The position numbers were made by a program, and so were the translations under genes. 46,215 nt of DNA from Acidithiobacillales bacterium SM1_46 (GTDB taxonomy: Bacteria > Pseudomonadota > Gammaproteobacteria > Acidiferrobacterales > Sulfurifustaceae), in NCBI GenBank assembly GCA_001304215.1, contig LJVB01000003.1, positions 1 through 46,215 on the forward strand. The letters run 5' to 3'. Shown here piece after piece: positions 22,181 to 32,935 of this stretch. How positions within the stretch are numbered: the first letter of the stretch is position 1; each line of letters opens with the position of its first letter. Below the pieces are notes generated by a model. The model did not search any database. It had not been told where the DNA came from and worked only from the letters and a program-made list of their open reading frames with translations.

Positions 22181-23980
22181 TTATGGCGCAGCCGCAGGCG
22201 TGACACCACGGTCGAGCAATGCGGACGCTTCCCAGATTTTCACTTTCTGCTCGCCGAATGGCGCCTCGAACGCCGCTCGCGCAGCGGCCGCTGCCGGCGG
22301 AAGCCAGCCGCCCGAATAGGTAATGAGATAGCCATCCGGGTGCGCACCGAGCCAGTTGGGCACCTGCGACGGTGATAGCTCGCTGATCGGGCGGCGCAAC
22401 CGCCCCGCGAACTGATAAGTTCCCGGATAGGCGCCGACATGCGCGATCGGGCGCCCGGCGCGATCGAGTGCACCGAGATATTGGCCGGTTTCGTCAACAC
22501 GATTGAACGCGTCAAACTGCGAACCAACGCCAAGCACGACAATCACGACGGCCGAAACGCCAAGCATGACCATGCTGCGGCAGCGACGCTCGGCATCGTG
22601 CAGCGGCAACCAAGCGAGCGCCACGCCGAGGGCGATCACGCCGACACCGATCAGGGGAGACTGGGTCTGCAGGATTTCCGGCAACCACTCGATGCGCGGT
22701 ATCTTCGGCAGTACCGCCAGTCCGCTGCCCAACAACGCGATAGGCAAGGTCATGCCGGTCAGCGGGTTTTCATCGCCACGTCCGCGTAGCTCGTCTTCGA
22801 ACAGCAACCAGGCGACGGCGAGCGCGCAGGCGGGCAGCAGCGGCAGCAGATACTGGGGTTGCTTGGGATCCACGAGAGATAGCAGCCCGAGCACAGACGC
22901 ACCCGTCACGAGCGCGAACATCAAGCCAGCGGGCACGGACAGACGTCGCGCACCCCACAGGCGCAGGTACAGCAAAGGCCACACCGACCACGGCAGTGTG
23001 GCGAGTGGAAGCAGCAGCAGGTACCACCAGATCGGCTGCCTGGCAGCGAACCAATCGAGTGGCGCCAGCGCGCCTTTGAGTGAGAAGAAACGCAGCGCGT
23101 AGGCGGCATCGGTTGCGCGCGCAGCAACCAGCAGCCATATGCCGAACACCAACGCACCAAGCGCACAGGCCTTAAGGAGATCGATATACCAGTATTTCCA
23201 GCGCGGGCGCACGCCTTCGGTGATCCATAGCGGCGCGAGTACGGCAACCGGTAACACGTAAATCAGGAATAACAGTCCTGACGAAAGTAGCCCGAAGCCA
23301 GTCGCAGCGCCGAGCAGCATCCAGGCGCGCATGTCGCGTGCGCGCCACTGGATAAGCAGCGCCGACCATGCGAGTAGCACAAAAAACACGCGGGTCATAT
23401 CGATCAGCACGAGCGTAGTGAAAAGTGCCCACGCAAACATACCGAGCAAAATGAGTGGCGCATGGAGAGCGAGCGGCTGGTTGTTCGGCCAGAACCGCCG
23501 TGCGAGGCGCCAGGTGAGGAGCAGATTGCCTAACCCGAACAGGGCGGGCGCAAGGCGTGCCCAACCCTCCGTCACGCCGAAGAGCTTCCACCCGGCGACG
23601 ACGATCCATAGCAGCAGCGGCGCCTGCGATGCCGGCTCCCCATTTATTCGCGGCACCAGCCATCCGCCCTGCGTCATCTCCCAGGCCATGGCGAGCAACC
23701 GGGTTTCATCAGTCGGCCAGGCTGCGCGCCCATAAAGCGAAGCGAGCACCAGCATGACCCATAACAGCGTCCACGCGCCAAGGTAACTCGCTGTAGCCGC
23801 CCACTGGCGCGGGGCCTCTTTCACCTTGTCCACCACGTGCGCCGCCGCACGCAGGTTGCCGACATCGCCAACCTCGATTTCTTCAACCACGAATTGCTCG
23901 ATGGCACGCTCGCGGCGCGCGGCACGGCGCGCAACCTTGTCGCGACGATCAGGTTTCGAGGGCGGGCGTTTGCCGAACAT
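22181..23980 (-). CDS. ArnT-like glycosyltransferase family 39 protein
   Basis: AAWPTDETRLLAMAWEMTQGGWLVPRINGEPASQAPLLLWI plus about a dozen hydrophobic segments. Confidence 0.82.
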   Translation of the reverse strand: MFGKRPPSKPDRRDKVARRAARRERAIEQFVVEEIEVGDVGNLRAAAHVVDKVKEAPRQWAATASYLGAWTLLWVMLVLASLYGRAAWPTDETRLLAMAWEMTQGGWLVPRINGEPASQAPLLLWIVVAGWKLFGVTEGWARLAPALFGLGNLLLTWRLARRFWPNNQPLALHAPLILLGMFAWALFTTLVLIDMTRVFFVLLAWSALLIQWRARDMRAWMLLGAATGFGLLSSGLLFLIYVLPVAVLAPLWITEGVRPRWKYWYIDLLKACALGALVFGIWLLVAARATDAAYALRFFSLKGALAPLDWFAARQPIWWYLLLLPLATLPWSVWPLLYLRLWGARRLSVPAGLMFALVTGASVLGLLSLVDPKQPQYLLPLLPACALAVAWLLFEDELRGRGDENPLTGMTLPIALLGSGLAVLPKIPRIEWLPEILQTQSPLIGVGVIALGVALAWLPLHDAERRCRSMVMLGVSAVVIVVLGVGSQFDAFNRVDETGQYLGALDRAGRPIAHVGAYPGTYQFAGRLRRPISELSPSQVPNWLGAHPDGYLITYSGGWLPPAAAAARAAFEAPFGEQKVKIWEASALLDRGVTPAAAP

Positions 23981-27476: not shown

Positions 27477-27713
27477 GTCGCCGGGGTGATGCGCGCCCTG
27501 TTATTTTGGCTACGCTTTGGCTCGGTTGCCCGGAACAAGCCTTTTCTCGCCGCGTTCCGATAGCTCCTTCGCCAACCTGTGTCGGGGACCGACGCATCGC
27601 TTTCGGAGTCGGCTTTCGGTCCGGGTGCACAGATAGATTGACCGCGGTAACGGCGCACGCCATCATGGTGTTTCGGTCGTCTCGACCGATCCGCATTTCC
27701 TGAAGTAACGTCA

Positions 27714-28745
27714 ATGGACCTCACAACGCGCGCAACGGCGGCTTCGGATCCGCGCCCTGAAATTTCCGATAGCGCCAGGCCCGATAGACCGTACATCTCC
27801 TGTGTTGCGCCGGCCTACAACGAGGCGGCCAACATCGATCCGCTTGTGGCCGCTCTGGATCAACACTTGCGCCAGAGTGGATTGCCCTATGAGGTCATAG
27901 TCGTCGACGACGGCAGCCAGGATGGTACCGCCGAAGCAGTGATCCGCGCAGGCACAAGCTATCCGGTCCGACTTGTCCAGCTGTCACGCAACTTCGGCAG
28001 AGAGAACGCCATCATGGCGGGGTTGGACCACGCGGCGGGTGATGTCGTGATTCTGATCGACGCTGACCTGCAGCACCCGCCCAGCCTCATCACCGCGATG
28101 CTGGAACGTTGGCGCGAGGGCTACGACATGGTCTATGCGGTACATACTCATCGCGACGACACCTCGTTGAGTCGGCGCTGGGGAACCCGCATTTTCTACA
28201 AGATGCTCTCCGGACTGTCGCAGACAAAAGTCACATTCGACGCGAGCGACTATCGACTGATGGACCGGAAGGTAGTCGACGCCCTGCGCTCGCTTCCCGA
28301 GCGCAGCCGGTTCATCAAAGGTTTGTTTCCTTGGGTTGGGTTCAAGACTATTGGCGTTCCATTCTCCGTCGATGAGCGAACCGCTGGCCGGTCAAGCTTC
28401 AACCCGCGCAGGCTCGCGGCATTGGCGCTTACAGGAATTACGTCGTTTTCCGAACTCCCCTTGAGGATCTGGGGTCTCATCGGTGCAGTCGTTTCCGCGA
28501 TCTCGCTACTGTATGCGGTCTGGATTGTATTCGAAACGCTGGTCATCGGAGATACCGTCCCTGGCTGGGCGACGTTGGCCGCGGCTCTGATGTTCTTCGG
28601 AGGCGTACAGCTGCTGTCGATCGGCATCCTCGGCGAGTATATCGGGCGTATCTACAACGAAGTAAAACAGCGGCCCCTCTACCTCGTGGCCCGCAAGCAT
28701 GGTTTCGGAAGCAGAGGCGACGCGTCTGACGCTCCACGATCGTGA
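27714..28745 (+). CDS. Polyisoprenyl-phosphate glycosyltransferase, GT2 (ArnC/GtrB/FlmF-like)
   Basis: ISCVAPAYNEAANIDPLV...VIVVDDGSQDGT...LSRNFGRENAIMAGLDHAAGDVVILIDADLQHPP; C-terminal TM pair. Confidence 0.93.
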   Translation: MDLTTRATAASDPRPEISDSARPDRPYISCVAPAYNEAANIDPLVAALDQHLRQSGLPYEVIVVDDGSQDGTAEAVIRAGTSYPVRLVQLSRNFGRENAIMAGLDHAAGDVVILIDADLQHPPSLITAMLERWREGYDMVYAVHTHRDDTSLSRRWGTRIFYKMLSGLSQTKVTFDASDYRLMDRKVVDALRSLPERSRFIKGLFPWVGFKTIGVPFSVDERTAGRSSFNPRRLAALALTGITSFSELPLRIWGLIGAVVSAISLLYAVWIVFETLVIGDTVPGWATLAAALMFFGGVQLLSIGILGEYIGRIYNEVKQRPLYLVARKHGFGSRGDASDAPRS

Positions 28746-29110
28746 TTCGACAGCTCTTCGCCTTCGGTATCGTTGGCACCCTTGCTGCAGCGGTTCATCT
28801 ATCCGGCGTGTTCCTGCTCGTGGAGCTCGGCCTGCATCCGCTCAGCGCAAATATCCTGGGATTCATGGCGGGGTTTCAGGTGAGTTACTTCGGCCATCGT
28901 TACTGGACATTCCGTGGCACCCAGGCGTCCCATCCAGTCGCTGCGTCACGCTTCCTGCTCACGGCGACTTCCAGCCTGGCGATGAACGAGGCGATGTTTT
29001 ACTTGTTGCTGCAGTTCACACCGCTCCCATATCTCGCGGCACTTACGCTGGTGCTCATTTGCGTTACTCCGATTACGTTCCTACTTGGTAAGTTCTGGGC
29101 TTTCCGCTAG
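28742..29110 (+). CDS. GtrA family protein (putative lipid-linked sugar flippase)
   Basis: MIRQLFAFGIVGTLAAAVHLSGVFLLVELGLHPLSANILGFMAGFQVSYFGHRYWTFRG...TFLLGKFWAFR; GTG start overlaps the GT2 stop by 4 bp. Confidence 0.9.
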   Translation: MIRQLFAFGIVGTLAAAVHLSGVFLLVELGLHPLSANILGFMAGFQVSYFGHRYWTFRGTQASHPVAASRFLLTATSSLAMNEAMFYLLLQFTPLPYLAALTLVLICVTPITFLLGKFWAFR

Positions 29111-30823
29111 AGGAACCTGGCGATTGCTGAAGAGCGTCGTGTCACCGTGGGTCTTGACCAAGTACAGACGGTAGCGCGCGCGCAGCTCTTCGGACAGGTG
29201 GGTTGGGCCGACCACGAAAAGACGCCGTTCCGCGCGCGCCGCGCGTTCCAGCCAGTCGTCACGCACGATCCAGGCCTGCGCGCGGGGATCCTGCTCAAGA
29301 CCCAACCTGAACTCGCGCTTCCAGTTATCACGGGTCTGCGATGAGGATTCTGGCAGTTCGGCCACGACTACGATAGGACGGATTTGACCGAGATAGACCG
29401 GCAGGTCCTGATAGTATTCCTGATACGTTGCTACGACGTCTTCTGGCCGGATCATCGTTCGCAGCTCAAGAGCCAGCGGCTTGATGCTGTGTGGCGAGAT
29501 CTTGCCGACAACGTGGACGACGGCCATAACGAGCACGAAACCGCTCACCAACATTCCGCCCCAGGCAAGCCGGAGTCGCCGTAACTGTGCGACAGCGGCG
29601 ACAGCCAGCGCGCTCGTGAGCAAGAACGAGCCAATCCGAATAGCCTCCCGGCCGATACCAGAAATATCGGCGATCTTTCGCGGCAGGTGCGACGCGGCAA
29701 CGAACATGCCGATCCCGAACACAGTCGCGAGCGCACTGTAGAGAAATAGATGGACTCGTGCGGAACGCTGGGCGGCATGATCTTCAAGCAAGCTCGCAAG
29801 CAACGCGCCCGTCAGCACCGCTAGCGGGGGCACCAAAGGCAGAATGTAGCCAACAATCTTCGATTGGGGTATGGAGAAGAACCCGAGCACAAACAGCACC
29901 CAGATCAGCAAGTAGATGGTGGCGCCCTCCTGCTGCGGGGAACGACGAACAGCGCCAAGCGACCTTGCGAAGGCATGCCCCACGGCGAATGTCCATGGAA
30001 ACATCCCCATCAGCACAACCGGCAGATAGAACCAGACCGGGTTCGGATTGTTGTATCCTGAACCCGAGAACCGGGAGAAATGCTGGTAGACGAAGAAGAA
30101 GTGCAGGAAGTCCGGGTTGGCCCGTTGCGCCAGCGCGAACCACGGAATGGTGACGACAAGGTAAATCGCCATACCGCTGGGAAGGTACATCTGGGCGATC
30201 AGCTTCCAGTCCCGACGCAAGAGGATCCAGAGGCCAATGACGGCCATCGGGAACACGATGCCGATCAGTCCCTTGGTAAGGGTCGCAAGCGCGGCGCTCA
30301 GGTACGCCAACCACATGAGGTAGCGACGGCGTGGGTCGCCCCAGGGATGCAACGTCCCGAGCAGAAAACACGATAGCGCTGCGGTGATCAACACGGCAAC
30401 GGTCAGGTTCATGTCAGCATATTGGCTGGCGAGGAAGTAGAGGGGGCTGCTTGCCAGCACCGCTACTGAAAGCCACGCCGCGCGTGCGCCAAACACCCGC
30501 CGGCTGACGACGAATGTCAGGCCGCATCCGACAAGACCGAACAGGGCGGACACGAGACGGATGGACCACTCATGCACCCCAAAAACGCGGAGCGAAAAAC
30601 TGGATATCCAGTAGTAGAGCGGTGGTTTGTCCAGAAAGACAACACCGTTCACCCTAGGCGTAATGTAGTCACCGGTAATCAGCATCTCGCGAGCGACCTC
30701 CGCATAACGTCCTTCGTCCGGAACGTTTAGCGGCCGCATCCCAAGAAGAAAGACGAACCAAATCAGCAGCGCAAGCAGCGCAGCCCACGCCAAGCGCCTT
30801 TCGTTATAAGCATGCTCAGTCAT
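29081..30823 (-). CDS. ArnT/FlmK-like glycosyltransferase family 39 protein
   Basis: MRPLNVPDEGRYAEVAREMLITGDYITPRVNGVVFLDKPPLYYWISSFSLRVFGVHEWSIRLVSALFGL. Confidence 0.92.
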   Translation of the reverse strand: MTEHAYNERRLAWAALLALLIWFVFLLGMRPLNVPDEGRYAEVAREMLITGDYITPRVNGVVFLDKPPLYYWISSFSLRVFGVHEWSIRLVSALFGLVGCGLTFVVSRRVFGARAAWLSVAVLASSPLYFLASQYADMNLTVAVLITAALSCFLLGTLHPWGDPRRRYLMWLAYLSAALATLTKGLIGIVFPMAVIGLWILLRRDWKLIAQMYLPSGMAIYLVVTIPWFALAQRANPDFLHFFFVYQHFSRFSGSGYNNPNPVWFYLPVVLMGMFPWTFAVGHAFARSLGAVRRSPQQEGATIYLLIWVLFVLGFFSIPQSKIVGYILPLVPPLAVLTGALLASLLEDHAAQRSARVHLFLYSALATVFGIGMFVAASHLPRKIADISGIGREAIRIGSFLLTSALAVAAVAQLRRLRLAWGGMLVSGFVLVMAVVHVVGKISPHSIKPLALELRTMIRPEDVVATYQEYYQDLPVYLGQIRPIVVVAELPESSSQTRDNWKREFRLGLEQDPRAQAWIVRDDWLERAARAERRLFVVGPTHLSEELRARYRLYLVKTHGDTTLFSNRQVPLAESPELTK

Positions 30824-31697
30824 GTCGGTCGTTCCCTGAAAACACGTTCGTGCCGGCGCCAGACCGGTCGCGGAATCTGCCTGGTCGCACGGACGCGCGC
30901 TCGCAATCGGCAGTGAAGGTGTCGCTGTTCAAGTATGCATACTCGCGACTACGCGCCGCTCCGATCGGATCCGCAGCGGTCGTGTCGGTGCGCGCGGGAT
31001 GACACATGATCAGGTCCGAAGCTTCGACCTGCGACAACCACGCGCGCATGAGCCCGGGGAAGTCTGCATCTGGCGAGAAATCGTAGATTCCGCCGAAGCG
31101 CCTGTTGTGGGGAATCCGTTCCGCGAGCAGGGCCGCCTCCAAACGCCCCGCCCCGAGCGCCGCCACGACGCGTGCCTTGAATTTGGCACTGCGGCTGTGA
31201 ATCACGCGCCGCACGTTCCGGACGTAACAGCTCCGATCAGCGAGGCGCTTTCGATAAACGTCCAACAGCGCATCACGAACGACGGGTAATTGGTGAACAT
31301 GGCGATGACCGTCGACAAAGTCGGGAAGCGCACCAAATCCATCAACGAAGCGGTCCAGTTGACGCTCAATCTCGACCGCAATCTGTTGACGGTCGAGCCG
31401 GCGCAGCTGCGACCGGAGAATCAGCATCGGCAGCGTTGGGTAGCTACCTAGTGCGGATCGATAGCCGGGATCATGATGTAACATCTCGTCGGCAATCAGA
31501 TTGAGATGGAGCCCAACATCGACACGCTTGCCACGGTGACGCAGTTCGGCCGCATGCGTGCGCCAATGAACAGAGGTAACGAGGCAGCTTACGGCTCCCA
31601 ATCGCCCTTGATCGACGAGGTCGACAATTGCTCTGGAAACCGGATCGCTTAGCGCGAAATCATCCGCGCAAAGGACAAAGCGTCGCACAGACGGCAC
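30816..31697 (-). CDS. ChbG/HpnK (YdjC superfamily) carbohydrate deacetylase, NaxD-like
   Basis: FVLCADDFALSDPVSRAI...VDVGLHLNLIADE...PDFVDGHRHVHQLPVVRDAL: conserved metal/active-site motifs; GTG start. Confidence 0.9.
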   Translation of the reverse strand: MPSVRRFVLCADDFALSDPVSRAIVDLVDQGRLGAVSCLVTSVHWRTHAAELRHRGKRVDVGLHLNLIADEMLHHDPGYRSALGSYPTLPMLILRSQLRRLDRQQIAVEIERQLDRFVDGFGALPDFVDGHRHVHQLPVVRDALLDVYRKRLADRSCYVRNVRRVIHSRSAKFKARVVAALGAGRLEAALLAERIPHNRRFGGIYDFSPDADFPGLMRAWLSQVEASDLIMCHPARTDTTAADPIGAARSREYAYLNSDTFTADCERASVRPGRFRDRSGAGTNVFSGNDRHD

Positions 31698-31758
31698 TCC
31701 AAGTTGGCGAAATCAAGCGAGCTCACGCCACACTCATCAATGTGAAACAAGCGCGAGA

Positions 31759-31832
31759 AGGATTTGCAAAATGCATCTGCGTCACTCTAGCCGCTGCATC
31801 TTAGGCATTGCTTAACAAACAGGATTTGCAAA
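31759..31832. repeat. Two copies of AGGATTTGCAAA (31759-31770 and 31821-31832), 62 bp apart, with palindromic core TTTGCAAA
   Basis: Read directly in the AT-richer intergenic region upstream of the deacetylase gene. Confidence 0.75.
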
Positions 31833-31886
31833 GGAAAAGCGTTGGAGCGCATGGATACCCCACCTGGCCGGATGCAAGGCAGCGGC

Positions 31887-32459
31887 TCAATGACGATAGA
31901 GAACGTAGGCAGCGATCAGGGCGTATGCGACCAGCGTACCGAGCAGGTTCCACTGGCCGTTATTGCGTACCAGCACTTCCCAGCTGAAGAACCGCAGGTT
32001 CGGGTCCGTGACTCGCGAGAGCGTCGGCAAGAAGCGATTGGTTCGCCGGCAATACGCTAGGTACGGCTCGCCAAGCAGTGGATCAAGACGCCGCTCTTCA
32101 CGCGCCACACGGTTGTACATATAGAAGTAATAAATTACCGCGAATGCGCCGGCGATGTACGGATTGCCAGGCAGCAACACGATGCCGAGCATCATCACGA
32201 AGCGCCCGAGGTACATGGGGTTGCGCACCAGCACGTAAGGTCCACGCGCCGTGAGCATGTCGTTCTTTACCAGCGCGGCAAATGCCCACACCTGAACGAG
32301 CTCGCCCGCGAGCGAAATAGCGAGCGCCGGCCAAAGCCACTCGCGGCGCGCGTGATAGACAATGAGCGCCAGCAACGCGACCGCCAGCACATAGCGCAAT
32401 CGCAGAAATACGCGGCGCACCCCAGGATGGTTGAAGAACTTGTTGACGGACTCGAGCAC
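31887..32459 (-). CDS. Isoprenylcysteine/phospholipid methyltransferase (ICMT/PEMT-like) family membrane protein
   Basis: LTARGPYVLVRNPMYLGRFVMMLGIVLLPGN...REERRLDPLLGEPYLAYCRRTNRFLP. Confidence 0.87.
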   Translation of the reverse strand: MLESVNKFFNHPGVRRVFLRLRYVLAVALLALIVYHARREWLWPALAISLAGELVQVWAFAALVKNDMLTARGPYVLVRNPMYLGRFVMMLGIVLLPGNPYIAGAFAVIYYFYMYNRVAREERRLDPLLGEPYLAYCRRTNRFLPTLSRVTDPNLRFFSWEVLVRNNGQWNLLGTLVAYALIAAYVLYRH

Positions 32460-32548: not shown

Positions 32549-32935
32549 CTACAGGTAGCGCGGCACCAGGATGGACGCCCACACGAACACTACCAGCAGC
32601 AGCGACAGCAGCACCGCCGCCGACCCCATGTCCTTGGCGCGACCGGAAAGCTCGTGGCGCTCCTTGCCGATGCGGTCAACCGTCGCCTCGACGGAGCTGT
32701 TGAGCAGCTCAATAATTGGCACCAGCACCAGGCTCCCCACCAGCAGACTGCGCTCGACCCCGTCCGCGCCAAGCCACCACCCGAGCGGCGCGAGAATGAA
32801 AAACACAATGATTTCTTGCCGAAACGCCGCCTCATGATTCATTGCGGCGCTGAAACCCCTTGCTGAATGAGCTCCCGCGCGTGGGATACGCGCGACGTCG
32901 CGGGCACTGTCGAGCAGCTTGCGACCCAAACCCAT
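32549..32935 (-). CDS. dgkA: Diacylglycerol kinase (DgkA)
   Basis: NHEAAFRQEIIVFFILAPLGWWLG...LVPIIELLNSSVEATVDRIGKERHELSGRAKDMGSAAVLL. Confidence 0.96.
   Translation of the reverse strand: MGLGRKLLDSARDVARIPRAGAHSARGFSAAMNHEAAFRQEIIVFFILAPLGWWLGADGVERSLLVGSLVLVPIIELLNSSVEATVDRIGKERHELSGRAKDMGSAAVLLSLLLVVFVWASILVPRYL

Follow-up and report, generated by a model that had tools for sequence, protein, structure and literature searches.

The window analysed here is a 46,215-nucleotide stretch of contig LJVB01000003.1 from Acidithiobacillales bacterium SM1_46. It contains four adjoining genes encoding a glycosyltransferase of family GT2, a small membrane protein of the GtrA family, an ArnT-like GT-C transferase and a YdjC/NaxD-type N-deacetylase (Table 1). 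All four open reading frames (ORFs) are long and unbroken, and their profile matches make them unambiguous members of their families. An earlier note on this DNA had described a GT2 gene overlapping a GtrA gene and convergent with an ArnT-like gene that itself overlaps a YdjC gene, and we recovered this arrangement exactly. The GT2 stop and the GtrA start share 4 bp (GTGA, 28742–28745), the YdjC stop and the ArnT-like start share 8 bp (30816–30823), and the convergent 3′ ends of the GtrA and ArnT-like genes overlap by 30 bp (29081–29110). Because of these overlaps, GT2–GtrA and YdjC–ArnT-like form two tightly coupled, mutually convergent pairs. The YdjC and GtrA genes are each the sole copy found in the draft genome of the source (2.6 Mb, 91% complete, 182 contigs).

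Table 1. Genes of the module and the edges of the insertion in window coordinates.
Feature	Position	Strand	Family or basis
GT2, candidate polyprenyl-phosphate N-acetylhexosamine synthase (GT-A domain and two C-terminal transmembrane helices)	27714–28745	+	PF00535
Small membrane protein of the GtrA family, putative flippase of undecaprenyl phosphate-hexosamine	28742–29110	+	PF04138
ArnT-like GT-C transferase that may place hexosamine on lipid A phosphate	29081–30823	−	PMT_2 PF13231
YdjC/NaxD-type N-deacetylase, predicted cytoplasmic	30816–31697	−	PF04794
Left edge of insertion, rhodanese gene to GT2; likely contains the GT2–GtrA promoter	27477–27713		Comparison with module-less relatives
Right edge of insertion, PEMT-like gene to YdjC; likely contains the YdjC–ArnT-like promoter	31698–31886		Comparison with module-less relatives

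Family placement of the four proteins

The deacetylase matched PF04794 with E = 3e-47 and scored far below the cut-offs of the ChbG model (79 bits, cut-off 227) and the HpnK model (65 bits, cut-off 233). In a maximum-likelihood (ML) tree of 104 sequences, whose in-group was gathered by similarity to the window protein, it fell into a clade (support 100/99) that includes the Acinetobacter deacetylases, known as NaxD in work on that genus, and the deacetylase of locus L044. The latter serves as our Francisella-like stand-in, a label given from synteny and GC content only: sspA lies nearby in L044, just as flmK (FTN_0546) and sspA (FTN_0549) lie close to each other in F. novicida. In that species flmF2 is FTN_0545, and FTN_0544, which we take to be NaxD, lies alongside. 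E. coli ChbG and HpnK branched outside the clade, as did the remoter YdjC proteins, so the phylogeny does not place the deacetylase with chitooligosaccharide or hopanoid enzymes, and we rejected its assignment as either ChbG or HpnK. Its nearest sister, with 46% identity, is the deacetylase of locus L030. These comparisons assign the protein to the NaxD clade. Its metal-site residues are intact: neither of the two alignments showed any variation at D12, D13, H64, H131, H133, H135 or H233. Its AlphaFold model (mean pLDDT 90) gave ChbG (7vi8) as the top PDB match and had ArnD, which performs the corresponding step of the 4-amino-4-deoxy-L-arabinose (L-Ara4N) pathway, among the lower-ranked structure matches. 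No hydrophobic stretch indicative of a transmembrane helix or signal peptide was detected in the deacetylase sequence, which fits a cytoplasmic enzyme.

The ArnT-like protein matched PF13231 (PMT_2) with E = 1e-19, and its best solved relative was Cupriavidus ArnT (5ezm, E = 9e-66). It scored 211 bits against the NCBIfam ArnT model, under the 567-bit cut-off. In the transferase tree, it grouped with the L044 transferase and Legionellales-type module transferases (99/95), whereas the second ArnT of the source genome, on contig C166, grouped with E. coli ArnT (96/93, long branches). The module transferases compared have in common an FLDKP or F-HKP motif and an NN element, whereas ArnT has FEKP and lacks the NN. 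The window protein carries PDEGRY and FLDKP, and it keeps the equivalent of the catalytic-loop aspartate D55 of ArnT. It is thus a module-linked member of the ArnT family, separate from the ArnT of the L-Ara4N pathway.

The GT2 (PF00535, E = 8e-33) has two hydrophobic stretches, at residues 255–273 and 288–306, and is closest among solved structures to sll0501 (E = 6e-90; ArnC only 9e-48). In an ML tree, it falls into a module-specific clade together with the Acinetobacter and Chromobacterium types (99/97), apart from both the ArnC clade (100/100) and the branch of E. coli GtrB. The GT2 beside the L044 deacetylase falls in the GtrB branch (96/92, long branches), and by this tree the window GT2 is therefore no FlmF2 orthologue. 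The description of the module as Francisella-like in the earlier note consequently holds for the clades of the deacetylase and the transferase but not for the GT2, which sides with the Acinetobacter and Chromobacterium module enzymes. The GT2 tree did not separate N-acetylglucosamine (GlcNAc) from N-acetylgalactosamine (GalNAc) as the sugar, since the Francisella-like GT2 fell elsewhere; the window does contain, in the linked set, a GT2 from the module clade as the candidate synthase. GtrA is a clear member of its family (PF04138, E = 8e-25; 87.8 bits, cut-off 26.1). Flippase activity has been proposed for GtrA-family proteins of other systems (PMC8035078), and by analogy we hypothesize that this one would flip undecaprenyl phosphate (Und-P)-hexosamine.

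Recurrence of the module and its genomic setting

In a class-wide sample of 369 evenly drawn genomes, we found 17 further genomes with a deacetylase of the same subfamily (defined at E < 1e-34), and GT2 and/or GtrA lay nearby in 17/17. Across 80 named related loci, GT2 was present at 75, GtrA at 59, an ArnT-like gene at 40 and all four at 28, counts that are lower bounds as some contigs end early. Gene order and orientation are shuffled among these loci, so the association survives rearrangement, and we rejected chance linkage in view of the recurrence across loci and families. In a comparison set of 19 loci with more distant YdjC or HpnK-type proteins and shorter flanks, most had no partner. 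A GT2 occurred at five of them (L027, L028, L029, L144 and L145) and GtrA at three of these five, so that a GT2–GtrA–YdjC link exists outside the NaxD-type clade too. At L029, L144 and L145, YdjC proteins from outside this clade adjoin GT2 and GtrA, so that this association has arisen in another YdjC lineage as well; those of L029 and L144 branch closer to HpnK. In the Coxiella endosymbiont of Ornithodoros maritimus (L107, 3499–6791), the module has apparently decayed, with the GT2 and deacetylase frames broken.

Seven sites from the same family (L175, L177, L178, L179, L182, L183 and L184) preserve the order gcvPB–DgkA–PEMT–(rhodanese)–DUF255 but have no module, which indicates that the four genes behave like a single inserted block. 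DgkA (32549–32935) and the PEMT/ICMT-like gene (31887–32459, minus strand) were considered as operon members and dismissed, since both stay in place in same-family relatives that have no module. The 4-kb module stretch has the lowest GC content among the 4-kb tiles of the window (0.595 vs 0.622) and also the lowest tetranucleotide correlation (about 0.89), which fits horizontal acquisition; no deacetylase match was found in the same-family genomes searched. From composition and distribution, the module was probably acquired horizontally. At the insertion edges we found no convincing direct repeats or tRNA, a promoter scan of the left edge returned only a weak sigma-70-like match (27638–27666) that was no better than chance, and no PmrA box was detected in the window. 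At the place taken by the module, between the rhodanese and PEMT genes, L175 (2769–3300) and L177 (2886–3413) have a short ORF of ~ 110 aa starting MEPQ. The PEMT/ICMT-like methyltransferase, which adjoins DgkA, weakly matches the model of the Leptospira lipid A 1-phosphate methyltransferase.

The earlier note had also pointed to the lack of arn genes nearby. The part of the window that was read contained no arn biosynthesis gene, but contig C166 of this genome (18000–29660, L151) holds a full set of arn genes, and the argument from missing arnA/arnB is therefore weak. This set occupies 2302–9471 of L151 on the minus strand and consists of ArnD, ArnA-C and ArnA-N (a split ArnA), ArnC, ArnB, a small ArnF-like ORF and ArnT; the small ORF is 49–51% identical to the ORF in the same place in relatives' arn operons. 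The tetranucleotide correlation between contig C166 and the window is 0.97. ArnD was found in 10/45 module genomes tested, including the source genome. Full arn operons also lie between DUF255 and lgt in the same-family loci L175 (6100–13086), L176 (6186–13144) and L185 (4679–11769), near the site of the module in the window; genes for lipid A sugars thus seem to have a hotspot here. The source draft genome (G000) has two full-length LpxC genes, C46:10096–10911 and C107:358–1173 (377 and 350 bits), and hence makes lipid A; no hopene cyclase or HpnK hits were found.

A proposed aminosugar pathway and its alternatives

A NaxD-clade deacetylase, the recurrent linkage, a transferase of the L044 type, insertion as a unit, the presence of LpxC and the lack of hopene cyclase and HpnK hits together suggest that the inserted cassette specifies a NaxD-type aminosugar decoration pathway, most likely acting on lipid A (probability about 0.78). 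The earlier note had proposed such a pathway with GtrA as the candidate flippase, and this proposal is supported, having withstood both the deacetylase phylogeny and the analysis of gene co-conservation. We infer the sugar, the acceptor and the role of GtrA. As judged from its family, the GT2 would move N-acetylhexosamine (GlcNAc or GalNAc) from its UDP-linked form onto Und-P at the cytoplasmic face. The YdjC/NaxD-type enzyme, given its clade and intact metal-site signature, would then deacetylate the product to Und-P-hexosamine with a free amine. GtrA may carry this across to the periplasmic face, where the ArnT-like GT-C enzyme would put the hexosamine on an acceptor in the outer membrane, most probably a phosphate group of lipid A, and so lower its negative charge. 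The pathway would run alongside, and not in place of, the separate L-Ara4N pathway of this genome.

The kind of pathway is already known from NaxD of Francisella and Acinetobacter and from Lgm of Bordetella. The window resembles the Francisella FlmF2–NaxD–FlmK system, which places galactosamine on lipid A, in the clades of its deacetylase and transferase via L044; in contrast, the GT2 beside the L044 deacetylase groups with E. coli GtrB, and L044 gave no GtrA hit. In Acinetobacter, NaxD is reported to mediate addition of galactosamine to lipid A (report cited in PMC6635527). The naxD loci of this genus encode a deacetylase of the same clade as that of the window and have adjacent GT2, GtrA and ArnT-like genes (L059, L065, L080, L088, L091 and, from A. 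baylyi, L101), although all lie on one strand in the order naxD–GT2–GtrA–ArnT-like and the transferase belongs to another sub-clade. Acinetobacter NaxD is regulated by PmrAB, in contrast to the window, in which no PmrA box was found, and A. baumannii has no arn genes (PMC9431647), unlike the source genome. The Bordetella lgmABCD genes, compared by description only, form a multi-gene pathway of the same kind that adds glucosamine to lipid A; lgmA-C are required for the modification and the fourth gene, lgmD, is non-essential (PMC4993483). With arnBCADTEF the module would have in common an Und-P sugar, deacylation (there by ArnD), flipping and ArnT-family transfer, but the sugar branch, deacylase family, GT2 clade and flippase differ. 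It is also similar to GtrA–GtrB–Gtr(type) glucosylation sets, in which a GtrA gene is overlapped by a GT2 gene whose product has two C-terminal transmembrane helices, but adds a deacetylase and an ArnT-like transferase, and the window GT2 is outside the E. coli GtrB branch.

Some observations weigh against the proposed pathway. The closest sister module (L030) has no adjacent ArnT-like gene, and the module transferases at other loci belong to several GT-C types, so the acceptor may differ between lineages. In addition, the equivalent of ArnT D158 is Asn in the window transferase (motif YADMNLTVA) and in L082, as compared with Asp in 47/49 homologues; in Cupriavidus ArnT, D158 reportedly makes contact with the sugar or the acceptor and pairs with K203 (PMC7801869), and this lysine partner is retained in the window protein. 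It is conceivable, though we consider it unlikely, that the chemistry is the same as far as Und-P-hexosamine and that the sugar ends up on core, O-antigen or another surface glycan. Other cell-surface polymers are commonly decorated by GT2–GtrA–GT-C sets (PMC8035078), the deacetylase is partnered by several unlike GT-C enzymes or by none, and the source genome already has an ArnT for lipid A. Nevertheless, the window transferase is ArnT-like, as indicated by its match to 5ezm, and groups with that of L044, whose flmK counterpart acts on lipid A.

Transfer of L-Ara4N by the ArnT-like enzyme, with the module as a variant L-Ara4N route, would agree with the ArnT profile and structure matches of the transferase, yet is very improbable given the complete arn operon that the genome carries elsewhere. 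We rejected the module as an Arn pathway because the copies on C166 fall with the ArnC (100/100) and ArnT (96/93) of E. coli and the window copies do not; moreover, the YdjC enzyme is no ArnD, and the transferase motifs differ (FLDKP and YNN vs FEKP and HE). Even less credible is a ChbG (chitooligosaccharide) or HpnK (hopanoid) enzyme that happens to adjoin an unrelated GtrA–GtrB type glucosyl-transfer set: the ChbG fold and the weak ChbG and HpnK profile scores are in its favour, but these scores are far below the cut-offs, the clade is separate, the genome has no hopene cyclase hit and the same linkage is found again in many families.

Cationic antimicrobial peptides and polymyxins act less strongly on lipid A that bears aminosugars. 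According to a paper on A. baumannii from 2022, the enzymes for transport and attachment of the galactosamine made by NaxD had yet to be identified (PMC9431647), and our search of the open literature, outside which most subscription papers lie, found no relevant paper treating GtrA and naxD together. The GtrA and ArnT-like genes beside Acinetobacter naxD, and GtrA at most related loci, provide named candidates for these missing steps. We give roughly even odds to GtrA being the usual flippase of NaxD-type pathways, carrying the positively charged Und-P-hexosamine. If so, the missing steps of galactosamine addition in Acinetobacter would be transport by GtrA and transfer by the product of the adjacent ArnT-like gene. 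One and the same genome can hold both a NaxD-type module and a full L-Ara4N operon; if the proposed pathway is correct, some bacteria, the source included, would carry L-Ara4N and hexosamine systems for lipid A modification together. What is new here, at the level of sequence, is the insertion as a unit, without the DgkA and PEMT neighbours; what is useful is how often GtrA recurs and that, in Acinetobacter, naxD has both a GtrA and an ArnT-like gene next to it.

The window also encodes a second, very divergent GT39-like protein of 599 aa (22181–23980, minus strand), in which SQAP replaces the usual KP motif. Its gene adjoins lgt and a VTT-domain (DedA-like) gene, and a relative likewise adjoins lgt in L183 and L184.

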